DNA of 64,000 bases from Terriglobia bacterium. GTDB taxonomy: Bacteria > Acidobacteriota > Terriglobia > Acidiferrales > UBA7541. The stretch is taken from positions 1 to 64,000 of the forward strand of contig JAIQGG010000006.1 in assembly GCA_020072785.1 (NCBI GenBank). Reading direction: 5' to 3'. The first letter of the stretch is position 1; every line of letters begins with the position of its first letter. Of the stretch, positions 7,682 through 62,570 are shown piece after piece. The notes below the pieces were generated by a model. The model had not been told where the DNA came from. It saw nothing but the letters and a program-made list of their open reading frames with translations, and made no database searches. Both the position numbers and the translations under genes were made by a program.

Positions 7682-8266
7682 TTAAGTTATGTCGACCGCT
7701 TCGCGGTCGCAGAGTACGTCGTCCGGAGCGAGTACCGATTCGGTACCGGTTCCCCGGGTTATGGGAATCACTGTTGCCCAGCGCGCCAGTTCGTTCCCCG
7801 CCGCTTCCACCAGCAGCGGCAGCGCCCGGGCCACCACCGGGGAGAGCTCCGCGCCCAGCCTGGTCGTGGCTGGCTGGATGCCCAGCAACACCACCTCCGG
7901 CGGCTCCTCTCCCAGCATGCGCAGCGCCATCAGCAGGTCCGGCAGCGCCATCTCATGCGCGCTGCCGTTGCCCGGCAGGCTGCGCAGTTCCTCGCCAGCC
8001 ACGCGGATCACCGCTCCCGCCGTGGCGCCCACATCCACGGCATCGAGCACCAGCAGCCGCCGCACACCCAGAAGATACGGCAGCAGCTCCAGCCCCTTCG
8101 TACCGCCTTCCAGAAACTCCACCTGCGCGCACCCTCCCAGCTTCGCTTCCAGCTGCTGCTGCGCGCAGACGCCTGCGCCGTCATCGGACTGGATCAGGCT
8201 GCCCAGCCCCAGCACCAGCGTGCGGTCGCTGCCTTCTCCTGGAAAACACATCGTCTCGCGCATCAT
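7682..8266 (-). CDS. hupD: Hydrogenase maturation endopeptidase (HupD/HyaD/HybD type)
   Basis: 194 residues; nickel-dependent protease that trims the C-terminal tail of the large subunit after metal insertion. GLGSLIQSDDGAGV (Asp28/Asp29), Asp75 in LLVLDAVD and His104 in SAHEM match the metal ligands of HybD. Its start overlaps the cytochrome b stop by four bases. The last ~20 residues (ending LCDREAVDIT) extend past the usual fold end and are encoded by a copy of the dispersed palindrome at 7694-7708, so the tail is probably repeat-derived. Confidence 0.9.
   Translation of the reverse strand: MMRETMCFPGEGSDRTLVLGLGSLIQSDDGAGVCAQQQLEAKLGGCAQVEFLEGGTKGLELLPYLLGVRRLLVLDAVDVGATAGAVIRVAGEELRSLPGNGSAHEMALPDLLMALRMLGEEPPEVVLLGIQPATTRLGAELSPVVARALPLLVEAAGNELARWATVIPITRGTGTESVLAPDDVLCDREAVDIT
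7694..7708. repeat. Dispersed palindrome copy 2, inside the hupD 3' end
   Basis: GACCGCTTCGCGGTC, perfect 6-bp arms. Read in frame it encodes the DREAV peptide near the C terminus of the maturation protease. Confidence 0.85.
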
Positions 8267-57526: not shown

Positions 57527-60500
57527 TCATTTATTCAGCGGGGCTAGGGTCTCGCAGTGAATCTGCCCGGCGGGCTCGACGCGCCCGGTGACGCGCAGCG
57601 CGCGCGTCTCATAGACCAGGCCGGCGAAGCGCTCGTAGACGCCGGGGAAGAGCACCGCTTCGAACAGGCCGCGCTGGTCTTCCAGGGTAATGAACATCAT
57701 GTTCCGATGGTTCTTGGTGCCCACATGCCGGAATGTCACCACCCAGCCGCACAACGCCACGCGTTTCCCGTGCAGTTCCTCCAGGGCGTCGCTCCAGATT
57801 TCGCCGTTGCGCGGCAGAAAGTCCAGCGGGTGCCCGCTGACGCAGACCTCCAGGATCTCCCGCTCGTAGCGCAGCTTCTGCTGCGGCGTGTACTCCGGTG
57901 CAGGCATCGCCTGCAGCGCCACACCCAGTCCGTCTTCGGACACGGCCTGCGAAAACAGGAGTTCTGACGTCCCGCAGGGCTCCGAGCCGCTGGGGGTTCG
58001 GAGCCGGGGGGCCGCTCCGGGTCTTTTTACCTGCAGCAAGTTCCACTGCCAGAGCAGCTCCGGGCGCGTCCTGGCGCAGACCTCCTCGAACGCGCCGCAT
58101 TTAATCAGCGCCTCGATCTCGTCGCGCTCGAGCGGCACGCGGCGCAGAAAATCCGGGAGGCCGCGAAAGATGCCGCCGGTTTCGCGGGCGCGCAGGATGG
58201 CGGTGATGGTTTCGAGGCGCAGGCCTTTCACCTGCAGCAGGCCGATGCGCAGGGCTTTCTTCCCGCCGGTCAAGATCTCTGCGGTGTACTCCATCCGCGA
58301 ATGATTCACCGACGGCGGGCGCACCGCGATCCCCCAGCGCTTGGCCTCCTCCACGTACGCCGAAACGTGATAGAAGCCCGCGCCGGCGCTGCACATCGCC
58401 GCCAGAAACTCCGCCGGGTGGTGCGCCTTCAGATAGGCCATGCGGTAGGAGAGGTCCGCGTAGGTTGCGGCGTGTGCCTTACAGAAGCCGAAACCCGCGA
58501 ATTTCTCAACCATCTGCCAGGTCTCTTCGCGCGCGCTGCCGGCCAGTCCCATCTGCGCGGCGGCTTTCAGGAATTTGGCGCGCAGGCGCTCGCGTTCACG
58601 CTGCCCGGAGAATTTCGCGGCCGAGCGGCGCACGATGTCGGCTTCCGCCAGGGACATACTGCCCACGGCCTGCGCGATCTGCATCACCTGCTCCTGGTAG
58701 ATGCACACGCCCAGGGTGCCGCCGAGGATCTTCTCGAGCGCCGGGTGCGCGTAGGTAATCCGTTCTTTTCCGCGCAGGCGCTGCAGGAACAGCTCTTTCG
58801 AGCCGTACTCCGACGCGCCCGGGCGGATCAGCGCCAGCGCCGCGGCGATCTCCTCGAGCGTGCGCGCGCGCATGGCCCGCAGCAGCCCGCGCATGCCCGG
58901 CGATTCGATCTGAAAAACGCCCATGGTGCGGCCTTCGGAGAGCATTGCGCAGGCGGCCGGGTCGTTCTCGGGAATGGCGTCGAGGTCGATCTGACGGGGG
59001 CGCGGGCGCGGCGTCGCGCCGTCCGGAGCAACCTGGACCTCCCGCGCAACGGCGCGTTCGCTCGCGCGTTCGATGTCGCGCGCGATGTCGCGCTCGCTAG
59101 CGCACTCGATATTGTCCAGCGCCAGGGACATGGTGGTCAGGCCGCGCTGGCCGAGCAGGTCCATCTTGATCAGGCCCAGGGCCTCCACGGCGTTCATGTC
59201 GTACTGCGTGACGACGATGCCTTTCGTGGCGCGTTCGAGCGGCGCCAGTTGCGTCAGCGGCCGCGCGGAAATCACCGTGCCGCAGGGATGAATTCCCAGG
59301 TGGCGCGGCGCGTCGTCCAGGCGCTCGGCGACGTGCAGAATCGTTGGCCACGGTTCGTGGTTTACCGGCAGGTCGCGGCATTGCGGCAGCGCAGCGATGG
59401 CCGCGCGGATCTCGCGCACCGGGCGGTGCGGCAGCCGTTTGGTGAAGTGGTTGACCTCGCCGGGCGGCACGCCGAAGACTTTGGCGACCTCGCGGATGGC
59501 CAGGCGGGCATGCATGGTGATGAAGCTGCCGATCATGGCCACATGCTCCGCTCCCCAGCGCGCGTAGACGTAATCGAGCAGTTCATCACGGCGCGCGCCG
59601 CAGATGTCGATATCGATGTCCGGACAATCGCCGCGCTGCTCGTTGAGGAAGCGCTCGAAGTACAGCCCCCAGCGCAGCGGGCAGACGCAGGAAATGCCCA
59701 GGCAGTAGGTCACGATGGAGCTGGCCGCCGAGCCACGCGCCACCGCGGGAATCCCGCGGCGCCGCGCCTCCTCCACGATGTCCCACACCAGCAGGAAATA
59801 AGGAGCCAGGTGCAGCTTCTCGATCACTTGCAGTTCGTGCGTGAGCCGCGCCAGCACCTCCGGGCGCAGAGGGTTGACCGCTTCGCGGTCAGACTTGAAG
59901 TCGTAGCGCCGCCGCGCGCCCTCGAAGCTCAGCTTCCAGAGATAGGAGAAGGGCGTTTCGCCCGCGGGCACGGGAAATTCCGGGAAGAGCAGCTTGCCCA
60001 GCTCGAGCTGCAAGTTGCAGCGCTCGGCGATCTCCAGCGTCGCCCGCAGCGCGTCCGCCCGCCCGTGCTGCTCGGCAAAGAGCCGCTGCATCTCCGCGGC
60101 GGGTTTGAACCAGGCTTCGCCGCTGGTGATCTCCGGCGGCGCGACGGTGGTCAGCAGCCCGCCGGTGCGGATAGCGTTCACCGCGCGGTGGTGCAGGTGC
60201 TCTTCGGGGCGCAGGAAGTGCACGTTGTTGGTGGCCGCGAGCGGCACGCCCAGCGCGCGGCCTAGTTGTTGCGCTTCGCGCAGCGCGCGCCCATCGCCCG
60301 GAAAGAGCAGCTGCACCTCCAGATACAGCGCGTCGCCGAAGATCTCCTTCAGCCGCGCGTAGTGACTGGTGACGGGTGACTCGTGGTTCGTGACTAGTGC
60401 GATCACGCCCATGCTGTGCTCCGCCAGGGTATCGAGCGGAACGGGCACTTCTGCAAGCTGCCTTTGGGTTACAAGCCGGCACATGTTGCTATAGCCTTGT

Positions 60501-60796
60501 GCATCCGCCGCCAGCAGCACCAGCGGCAGGCTCGCCGAATTTCGAATTTCGTTTTTCGAATTTCGAAACTCGAAACTCGAAACTGGAAAAACGGTGTCCA
60601 GCACCGTGCCCACAATCGGCTTCACCCCCGCCTTCTGCGCCGCCTGATAAAACGGCACGGCCGCGTACATCCCGCCCGTGTCCGTGAGCGCCACGGCGGG
60701 CATCTGCTGCGCGGCCGCCGCGGCCACCAGCTCCTCGGGCGATCCCACGCCGCGCAGGAACGAGTAGTGACTGTGGCAATGGAGATGGATGAACAT
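57527..60796 (-). CDS. dnaE2: Error-prone C-family DNA polymerase (DnaE2/ImuC-like) with in-frame repeats
   Basis: 1089 residues. PHP domain starts FIHLHCHSHYSFLRGV; polymerase palm keeps PDIDID and IKMDLLGQRGL; tandem HhH (EKFAGFGFCKAHAATYADLS); it ends at the OB-fold (TFRHVGTKNHRNMMFITLED) without the tau-binding tail, as in ImuC. It lies beside a DinB-type polymerase on the same strand. Segments at residues ~75-89, ~135-148, the SDREAV loop (59876-59890), an Arg/Glu-rich stretch (about 58985-59110) and a GAAPRLRTPSGSEPCG stretch (57965-58015) are encoded by dispersed repeats. ImuA and ImuB are not in the window. Confidence 0.85.
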   Translation of the reverse strand: MFIHLHCHSHYSFLRGVGSPEELVAAAAAQQMPAVALTDTGGMYAAVPFYQAAQKAGVKPIVGTVLDTVFPVSSFEFRNSKNEIRNSASLPLVLLAADAQGYSNMCRLVTQRQLAEVPVPLDTLAEHSMGVIALVTNHESPVTSHYARLKEIFGDALYLEVQLLFPGDGRALREAQQLGRALGVPLAATNNVHFLRPEEHLHHRAVNAIRTGGLLTTVAPPEITSGEAWFKPAAEMQRLFAEQHGRADALRATLEIAERCNLQLELGKLLFPEFPVPAGETPFSYLWKLSFEGARRRYDFKSDREAVNPLRPEVLARLTHELQVIEKLHLAPYFLLVWDIVEEARRRGIPAVARGSAASSIVTYCLGISCVCPLRWGLYFERFLNEQRGDCPDIDIDICGARRDELLDYVYARWGAEHVAMIGSFITMHARLAIREVAKVFGVPPGEVNHFTKRLPHRPVREIRAAIAALPQCRDLPVNHEPWPTILHVAERLDDAPRHLGIHPCGTVISARPLTQLAPLERATKGIVVTQYDMNAVEALGLIKMDLLGQRGLTTMSLALDNIECASERDIARDIERASERAVAREVQVAPDGATPRPRPRQIDLDAIPENDPAACAMLSEGRTMGVFQIESPGMRGLLRAMRARTLEEIAAALALIRPGASEYGSKELFLQRLRGKERITYAHPALEKILGGTLGVCIYQEQVMQIAQAVGSMSLAEADIVRRSAAKFSGQRERERLRAKFLKAAAQMGLAGSAREETWQMVEKFAGFGFCKAHAATYADLSYRMAYLKAHHPAEFLAAMCSAGAGFYHVSAYVEEAKRWGIAVRPPSVNHSRMEYTAEILTGGKKALRIGLLQVKGLRLETITAILRARETGGIFRGLPDFLRRVPLERDEIEALIKCGAFEEVCARTRPELLWQWNLLQVKRPGAAPRLRTPSGSEPCGTSELLFSQAVSEDGLGVALQAMPAPEYTPQQKLRYEREILEVCVSGHPLDFLPRNGEIWSDALEELHGKRVALCGWVVTFRHVGTKNHRNMMFITLEDQRGLFEAVLFPGVYERFAGLVYETRALRVTGRVEPAGQIHCETLAPLNK
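57978..58005. repeat. Hairpin repeat inside dnaE2 (GGCTCCGA...TCGGAGCC)
   Basis: 8-bp inverted arms (57978-57985 and 57998-58005) in frame, encoding part of a Pro/Gly/Ser-rich loop between the HhH region and the OB-fold. Confidence 0.6.
59030..59105. repeat. Internal tandem-like repeat in dnaE2 (SER-Arg-rich)
   Basis: Alternating GCGCGTTCG / GATGTCGCG units encode repeated ASER and IARD peptides after the palm helix. This resembles a degenerate inverted/tandem repeat expanded in frame. Confidence 0.55.
59876..59890. repeat. Dispersed palindrome copy 6, inside dnaE2
   Basis: GACCGCTTCGCGGTC flanked by TT and A, identical to intergenic copies, encoding the SDREAVNP loop. Confidence 0.9.
60353..60397. 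repeat. GTGAC-type repeat inside dnaE2 PHP domain
   Basis: Reiterated GTGAC/GGTGAC units encode VTNHESPVTSHY (residues ~135-146). Related units occur in the dnaE2 upstream region at 60801-60895. Confidence 0.7.
60533..60590. repeat. TTCGAAA-type repeat inside dnaE2 PHP domain
   Basis: TTTCGAATTTCG units encode FEFRNSKNEIRNS (residues ~75-87), matching the intergenic stretches at 43028-43130 and 55437-55527. Confidence 0.7.
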
Positions 60797-60800
60797 GGTG

Positions 60801-60895
60801 GTTCGTGACCCGTGACGCGTGCCTGTAACCCGGGCGGAGACACTCGCGCAATGCGAGGTCTTCCACGAGTCACGGGTCACCAGTCACGAGTCACT
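60801..60895. repeat. GTGAC-type inverted repeat upstream of dnaE2
   Basis: GGTTCGTGACCCGTGACGCG (from about 60800) faces CACGAGTCACGGGTCACCAG (from about 60865), forming an inverted repeat in the 163-bp dnaE2-dinB gap; same family as the in-frame copy at 60353-60397. Confidence 0.65.
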
Positions 60896-60959
60896 ACACG
60901 TGCGGGCGCACGCCTTTCTGTTGGTTCAACTCAAGGTAGGGAAGGGATGTAAAAACCGG

Positions 60960-62339
60960 CTACCGCGACAGGCACGGCGTCGAAAGCACCAGCCCGTCCG
61001 GCTTGGTGGCGTAGTGCTCGCGCAAGGCGAGCCCCTTGCCGTAAAAGACGGCGTTCCAGCCGTAGCGCCCGCGCACCGTGTCCACGCCGTGATTCAGTTC
61101 CCGGCGGCGGTTGGCGGCGGTATCGAAGAGCTCGTTCTGGCGGCGGTCGGGCTCAAGGTTGGTCACGCTGACGCCCACCAGACGCACGGCCACGCGCCGG
61201 GTGAAGAGTTCGCCAAAGAGTTGCCGGGCCGCGGCCAGCAGTTCGCGCTCGTCGTTGGTCGGGCGCACGAGCCGCTCGGTGCGCTGCGCGGAGAAAGAGT
61301 CGGCGTAGCGCAGGCGCAGGCCGATGGTGCGCGCCTGGCGGCCGTAGTCGCGCAGCGTCGCGCCGATGCGCTCGGAGAGATACTCGAGGAGCCCGCCAAG
61401 AAATTCCGTGTCGATGGTGCCGCCCTCGATGGTCGTCTCGCGGGAGACCGATTTCGGCGTTCCCGGGGCCAGCACTTCGCGCCCGTCGAGGCCCCGCGCG
61501 CGTTCCCAGATCTGCCGGCCGACGGCTTCACCGAACGCCGCCGCCAGCGCCGGCTGGGGAATCCGCCGCAACTCGCCGATGGTTTGCACGCCGCGCTCGG
61601 CCAGCTGCGCCGCGTGCACGTGGCCGATGCCGTGCAGTTTTTCGACCGGCAGCGGCGCGAGGAATTCCTCTTCATCGCCGGGGGAAACGATGTGGAAGCC
61701 GCGCGGCCGCTGGAGCCGCGAGGCGATTCCCGCCACTACCTTGCTCGTTGCCGCGCCCACGGAAACGCTCAGGCCCGTGCGCCCCAGGATCTCCGCCTGC
61801 AGCCGGCGCAGCGCCGCCGGGAAGTCCGGATAGAGCCGCTCGGTGCCGCGGAAATCGAGATAGAAGTCGTCCAGCGCCGCGGTCTCCACCGCCGGGGTGT
61901 AGGTTTCCAGGATGCGCCGCACGCGCTCGGCAAAGTCCGCGTAGTGCTCGTACTGCCCGGGGACGACCACCGCCTTGGGGCAGATGCGCAGCGCCTCGCG
62001 GAAGCTCATGGCCGTGCGCACCCCGCGGAACTTGGCCTCGTAGCTGGCCGAAGCCACCACGCCGCGTCCCACCAGCACCGGCTTGCCGCGCAGCTTGGGG
62101 TTGAGCACCTGCTCCACCGAGGCGAAGAACGCGTCCACGTCCACGTGCACGATGTGGGGATGCTTTGCGCTGCGGAGTTTGCCCAGTCCGAGCCACCGCG
62201 CGGGTGACCAGGAGGTTTTTTCCGCCGCGCTTTCCGGGGTTTCGGAAAAAGCCGCAGGGCTGGCGCCCTGCGCTACAGCTTCGTGCGGAATCGCATTGCT
62301 GGGTGGGGCAGGGAATGTGCTTTCGACGCAGGTTTGCAT
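60960..62339 (-). CDS. dinB: Y-family DNA polymerase (DinB/Pol IV-like)
   Basis: 459 residues; translesion polymerase. After a ~60-residue disordered N terminus come VHVDVDAFFASVEQ (first metal Asp), SASYEAKFRGVRTAMS and the second catalytic motif, which reads AALDDFYLDF rather than the usual SIDEAYLD; the catalytic Glu is therefore Asp. Helix-hairpin-helix (KLHGIGHVHAAQLAERGV) and little-finger domain follow. AGGAG five bases before the ATG at 62339. Same strand and 163 bp upstream of dnaE2, a mutasome-like pair. Confidence 0.9.
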   Translation of the reverse strand: MQTCVESTFPAPPSNAIPHEAVAQGASPAAFSETPESAAEKTSWSPARWLGLGKLRSAKHPHIVHVDVDAFFASVEQVLNPKLRGKPVLVGRGVVASASYEAKFRGVRTAMSFREALRICPKAVVVPGQYEHYADFAERVRRILETYTPAVETAALDDFYLDFRGTERLYPDFPAALRRLQAEILGRTGLSVSVGAATSKVVAGIASRLQRPRGFHIVSPGDEEEFLAPLPVEKLHGIGHVHAAQLAERGVQTIGELRRIPQPALAAAFGEAVGRQIWERARGLDGREVLAPGTPKSVSRETTIEGGTIDTEFLGGLLEYLSERIGATLRDYGRQARTIGLRLRYADSFSAQRTERLVRPTNDERELLAAARQLFGELFTRRVAVRLVGVSVTNLEPDRRQNELFDTAANRRRELNHGVDTVRGRYGWNAVFYGKGLALREHYATKPDGLVLSTPCLSR

Positions 62340-62570
62340 GGCAGCTCCTGTTAAGTGTGACCGCAGAGCGGTCAACGCAGGGAAACGAGCGGTTTTTCTG
62401 GACGTTCGCCCGCGGGATTTAACGGGTGGCGACCGGCTCCTGCGAGTCGCCAGGACCCTGGAGCCGGAACGCCACCCGCTTCCCGTTTCCTCTACCAGGG
62501 GGGACTATAGGCGAACAAAAAGCGAAAGTCAAGAAAACTCTGCGCACTCTTGCCGGGACTAGGGTCTTTC
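62340..62570. other. Intergenic region upstream of dinB
   Basis: 231 bp between the patatin-barrel gene and dinB (both -). It contains a variant dispersed palindrome at 62359-62373. I see no LexA-type box with confidence. Confidence 0.45.
62359..62373. repeat. Dispersed palindrome copy 7 (GACCGC-aga-GCGGTC variant)
   Basis: Perfect 6-bp arms with loop AGA, 20 bp upstream of the dinB ATG in its leader. Confidence 0.75.

Follow-up and report, generated by a model that had tools for sequence, protein, structure and literature searches.

A DnaE-type DNA polymerase gene of an Acidobacterium carries several unrelated families of short repeats in frame. We put the odds at roughly two in three that the flexible linkers of this accessory DnaE act as a sink for short dispersed repeats, with tolerance of added residues as the main cause. 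The gene lies in the window, the whole 64,000-nucleotide stretch of DNA that was analysed, which belongs to a genome of 3.73 Mb on 11 contigs whose nearest named relatives are MAGs of Acidobacteria gp2 and Candidatus Acidiferrum. In about 26 related species four loops of the protein (A, B, D and E) are filled by differing repeat families. The comparisons demonstrate the positions of these loops and their parallel reuse, quick turnover of the families, a conserved core, dispersal of the families and a filter on orientation (Table 1).

Table 1. Features of the polymerase locus, in window coordinates; pLDDT values refer to residues of the AlphaFold2 model
Feature	Position	Strand	Support or model confidence
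DnaE-type (C-family) DNA polymerase, 1089 aa, PHP/palm/fingers/HhH/OB	57527..60796	-	ORF, Pfam, alignment, tree
Insert A, array of TTCGAAA/CTCGAAA heptads translated as SSFEFRNSKNEIRNS, PHP-domain hairpin loop	60536..60589	-	pLDDT < 50 at 77-79, 82-85
Insert B, array of GTGAC heptads translated from the stop-free (GTCAC) orientation as VTNHESPVTSHY, PHP domain	60362..60395	-	
Insert C, DFKSDREAVN with GACCGC palindrome (59876-59890)	59870..59899	-	pLDDT < 50 at 302-305
Loop D, local tandem of a 12-bp unit, rich in Arg/Ser/Glu, plus the linker after it	59000..59101	-	pLDDT < 50 at 578-600
Loop E, HhH-OB linker with hairpin GGCTCCGA...TCGGAGCC (57978-58005)	57947..58021	-	pLDDT < 50 at 925-953
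Inverted pair of GTGAC arrays, between polymerase start and dinB	60804..60894	.	
Y-family (DinB/Pol IV-like) polymerase, conserved neighbour of the polymerase gene	60960..62375	-	

A separate DnaE lineage beside a Y-family polymerase

The polymerase ORF has no internal stop, its conserved start is the ATG at 60796, and its product bears the full DnaE-type domain set, ending with the OB fold (Pfam and an AlphaFold2 model with a mean pLDDT of 85, whose closest PDB matches are Pol III alpha). These domains, together with three catalytic aspartates (393, 395 and 546, invariant across 42 homologs, as is K544), place it in the C family. A Y-family gene adjoins it in 26 of 27 genome-contig loci; this DinB-like neighbour has ALDDFYLD at the usual Pol IV DE position. 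The reading that we favour treats the polymerase as a working accessory DnaE, presumably active, that is paired with the DinB-like polymerase.

The gene had been labelled dnaE2-like in the preliminary description, a label that does not survive classification. Against NCBIfam PRK05672, the error-prone model (cut-off 939 bits), the polymerase scores 660 bits, an outgroup ortholog 675 and the DnaE2 of Manganitrophus 1244; the probable DnaE2B of Kitasatospora (545) is also under the cut-off, so the model does not capture every DnaE2. The tree comprised 25 taxa, with DnaE1, DnaE2A, DnaE2X and probable DnaE2B, the reference group names being assigned from gene context. In it the split of {E2A, E2X, E2B} from the rest has bootstrap support of 100, as does the clade of the polymerase and its orthologs, which sits on a long stem. 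One DnaE2 trait is present, a substituted PHP active site (FLRG for FLDG, TDT for TDH, ATNN for ATND). By tree and by cut-off, the polymerase thus appears to belong to a separate DnaE lineage, here called DnaE-X, and not to DnaE2.

Within our searches DnaE-X (57527-62375; loci L035-L061) turned up only in Acidiferrales-like Acidobacteria, with a DinB-like gene as its partner, and the accessible portions of C-family polymerase surveys mention no such Acidobacterial group. A canonical DnaE2A also occurs in some genus members (L255-L260, with an ImuB-like ORF in L255), so that up to three DnaE types stand side by side. DnaE2B-PolY-RecA and related mutasomes (PMC12926913) likewise combine a second DnaE of altered PHP with an adjacent Y-family polymerase; the tree, however, sets DnaE-X outside DnaE2A, DnaE2X and DnaE2B.

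Repeat families in this gene copy

We read an 864 kb sample (23% of the genome) in full and ran pattern searches over the whole genome. Of the five repeat types proposed, three proved to be dispersed families (TTCGAAA heptads, GTGAC heptads, GACCGC palindrome) and two to be purely local (the GGCTCCGA hairpin, the Arg/Ser/Glu stretch). Genome-wide, the heptad patterns TCGAANNTCGAA and GTGACNNGTGAC match 58 and 23 times (controls, 6 and 2), mainly in intergenic DNA. The GACCGCTTCGCGGTC segment of insert C is a member of the GACCGC palindrome family, which has 253 places in the present genome (control, 5), 237 in G007, 100 in G005 and at most 26 in other genomes. Sister genome G009 has insert C in common with this gene despite having only 3 such places; the site is empty in the remaining genus members. 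As with palindromic elements of the Rickettsia type, six GACCGC copies in the 864 kb sample have coding signal on both sides and read DR(F/E/S)AV. The GGCTCCGA octamer, in contrast, is not enriched in the sample (43 occurrences vs 62 in a shuffle) and was rejected as a dispersed family, and the Arg/Ser/Glu stretch consists of 2.7 local tandem copies of a 12-bp unit (59065-59096).

In the window the GACCGCNNNGCGGTC palindrome lies at 838, 7694, 12926, 27338, 27365, 59876 and 62359. It is often tandem with 27-bp spacing, is expanded only in this genome, G007 and G005, and reads DR(F/E/S/K)AV where genic. No link of the GACCGC palindrome to a Y1 transposase was seen within about 1 kb at the four loci checked. 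GTGAC arrays occur as inverted pairs some 60-200 bp apart (60805/60869 in the window; C1:83651/83850 and C4:122193/122372 elsewhere in this genome), resembling the ends of a small element.

Near-perfect intergenic CTCGAAA arrays, a sign of recent slippage, were found at C4:78886-78995 (about 16 units) and C7:105885-105973 (about 13 units; L294, L295). Heptad-array slippage could conceivably turn the polymerase on and off as a phase-variable switch, given that gain or loss of seven-base units preserves the frame only in multiples of three and that near-perfect arrays of up to 16 units exist elsewhere in the genome. The in-gene arrays, however, are short and degenerate, and no off-state ortholog is present among the matches listed; we regard a switch as barely credible.

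The same loops hold other repeats in related species

Ortholog loops that are shorter or differently filled, the AlphaFold2 model and dN/dS all lend good support to the proposal that the repeats entered exposed loops between catalytic motifs without loss of frame. In the ortholog alignment, length varies mainly in loops A (residues 66-91), B (134-150), D (564-606) and E (922-958), with site C at 299-310. Every segment of at least three residues with pLDDT < 50 in the model falls in A, C, D or E; site B has a pLDDT of about 80 and may be structured.

Across 26 genus loci the gene holds a mean of 2.5 recognised families. In relatives, GATTCNTCG..ATGAC occurs in all four loops and AAGGANNTAAAGGA in every one but B (L026 has it in both orientations); GTAGGGGC stem-loops (GTAG-type REPs) were seen in B and D, and ACAGGCATTCCTG in D and E. 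Two of these families were confirmed as dispersed by genus-wide counts in which control patterns gave zero; the GTAGGGGC and ACAGGCATTCCTG types were identified by sequence, outside those counts. The loops make up 13% of the gene, and matches in loops vs the rest number 20:0 for GTCAC heptads, 18:0 for GTAGGGGC REPs and 19:1 for GATTCNTCG..ATGAC, using regular expressions derived from these very inserts. Between the sister species G034 and G035 (core dS 0.22) the family at site A has been swapped, and the distant orthologs L054, L055, L057, L058 and L061 have short A and D loops. Independent MAGs behave alike at the loops, which rules out an assembly artefact. Y1_Tnp genes are present in 29 of 36 genomes, with no repeat beside the four loci checked; the GTAGGGGC stem-loops found in loops B and D of relatives are missing from this gene copy.

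Selection on core and loops

Relaxed selection, suggested earlier for the gene, applies to the loops alone. Most close pairs have a core dN/dS of 0.06-0.12 (G016/G014 reaches 0.23), DnaE1 shows 0.03-0.07 in most of the same pairs, and mean dN is 1.08 times that of the replicative DnaE1. Loop dN/dS, which rests on uncertain alignment, is 0.26-0.82 in the 14 closest pairs, with no value above 1. With selection this strong on the core and weaker on the loops, gene-wide relaxation fails. A decaying gene might have been expected, since this second DnaE is probably non-essential and several of its PHP metal ligands are gone. Yet the core dN/dS, the mean dN, the invariant catalytic residues and the lack of internal stops in the listed ortholog matches refute decay in the main, leaving it very improbable.

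The loops could instead be variable because selection favours linkers that alter how the polymerase behaves or binds its partners. The PHP domain, which holds loops A and B, is where DnaE2A mutasome models put the main ImuB contact (PMC12926913), and REP insertions recur in published repair genes, DnaE2 among them (PMC3733652). Against this stand the loop dN/dS values, none of which exceeds 1, and the interchangeability of families and peptide sequences, and we think selection for the loops themselves rather unlikely.

Orientation and frame of the repeats are also constrained. Read in the GTGAC direction, the GTGAC heptads contain TGA in every frame; their complement is stop-free in all frames, and on the coding strand the arrays in 11 genes are oriented 11:0 in favour of the TGA-free form. 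Internal GACCGC copies are in one frame in 6 of 6 cases (864 kb sample). Such one-sided orientation and single frame would be expected if harmful insertions had been purged.

Repeat load compared with other genes

In the 17 genomes with both polymerases, DnaE-X has 6.25 indels of at least 4 aa per pair vs 0.00 for DnaE1, and 80 vs 1.2 gapped residues, at core identities of 0.80 and 0.85. Per 1000 aa, the neighbouring dinB has 0.72 indels vs 6.24 for DnaE-X, the canonical DnaE2A of the genus being intermediate (3.45, five sequences). Between this genome and G022, DnaE-X has the most indels (8) of 55 ortholog pairs, and no other of the 568 sampled genes has as many segments that match intergenic repeats (a reversed-sequence control never exceeded 2 per gene).

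The preliminary description held that other large genes lack such captures. This is true of the window, where none has an internal copy (the small gene at 7682-8266 has a palindrome towards its C-terminus), but elsewhere in the genome genes do carry inserts. A second repeat-capturing gene encodes a 786-aa protein here and a 907-aa counterpart in G009 (L205 655-3012 and L266 6156-8876), with TTCGAA or GTGAC repeats by a CxxC pair and close to the C-terminus in the two species; the protein looks like a phage portal protein and has no Pfam match. At L277 1185-3023 and L282 1191-3020, in-frame inserts were also seen in an FG-GAP/UnbV protein of G011 (KEVKEIKEVKE) and a helicase-like ORF of G014 (AVILSEAKD). 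Capture is not exclusive to DnaE-X, yet DnaE-X tops every comparison made; the process is therefore general, with DnaE-X its extreme case among the genes examined.

Local insertion bias offers another account, in which the locus attracts repeats, for example through recombination with upstream arrays or single-strand exposure, and tolerance only decides which are retained. Of some 108 three-unit GTGAC arrays, 7 in the genus lie inside the DnaE-X gene and about 12 within or next to it, with about 0.06 expected inside by length (our estimate; totals merged by hand). At least five genomes have GTGAC arrays flanking the gene, and repeats cluster just outside it, both here (60804-60894) and in G009, G010, G022 and G032, which hints at such a bias. 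A hotspot is nevertheless unlikely: many unrelated families are involved, several linkers have been hit, and the core and the adjoining dinB are spared. A locus-wide bias should strike dinB too unless every such strike is lethal.

How repeats may accumulate in the linkers

Under the tolerance reading, tiny repeat families (heptad tandem arrays and REP-like palindromes) would multiply, probably by slippage, template switching or a transposase, and land at many sites in the genome. Selection would clear most landings within genes. Four linkers (A, B, D and E) and the lineage-specific site C would accept added residues, so that stop-free, frame-keeping copies survive there; these copies would then decay and give way to other families. 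Tolerance alone leaves the ranking of genes unexplained, as other dispensable genes must tolerate insertions too, yet few are so loaded. In a more elaborate scheme, this undescribed DnaE lineage and its DinB-like partner would preferentially gain or keep repeats because changed loops tune the enzyme, repeats and mutagenic polymerase feeding each other; we consider it improbable.

Relation to known repeats and significance

The heptanucleotide STRR repeats of heterocystous cyanobacteria are dispersed degenerate tandem 7-mers, as are the heptads described here, but sequences and phylum differ. A literature search yielded no link between the two, and one on heptad repeats in Acidobacteria found nothing relevant. 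The palindromic elements of Rickettsia (Ogata 2000, 2002) are dispersed palindromes of about 150 bp found in frame in many protein genes (PMC10969869). Dispersed in-frame palindromes are common to both systems; here several shorter families pile into one gene.

The nearest precedent is a 2013 survey of GTAG/CGTC REPs, which reported intragenic copies in genes for DNA synthesis and repair, among them DnaE2, UvrA and RecB, and whose authors suggested flexible linkers or loops as their sites (PMC3733652). In two Xanthomonas species the recB REP lies at about one shared site, and Di Nocera and colleagues speculated that REP-tagged repair enzymes gain from changed loops; the survey recorded no GTAG repeats in Acidobacteria (PMC3733652). 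Both cases involve short palindromes within replication or repair genes. Unlike the earlier one, ours comprises at least six families, including heptad arrays, in loops shared by some 26 species, in a polymerase that appears not to be DnaE2 and with selection measured on core and loops. Intragenic REPs in repair genes including DnaE2, and the linker idea, are thus already published. New are the accumulation of several unrelated families, genus-wide reuse of the same loops, their fast turnover, the contrast with DnaE1 and dinB, and the DnaE lineage itself. The kind of event, seen here in a group of soil Acidobacteria, was known before, though not at such intensity.

The gene provides a natural map of where a DNA polymerase tolerates insertions, repeated across some 26 species, with DnaE1 and dinB as built-in controls. 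It also makes testable the old question of why REPs sit in repair enzymes including DnaE2, be it through target bias, tolerance or selection, and it illustrates one route from non-coding repeats to protein sequence.
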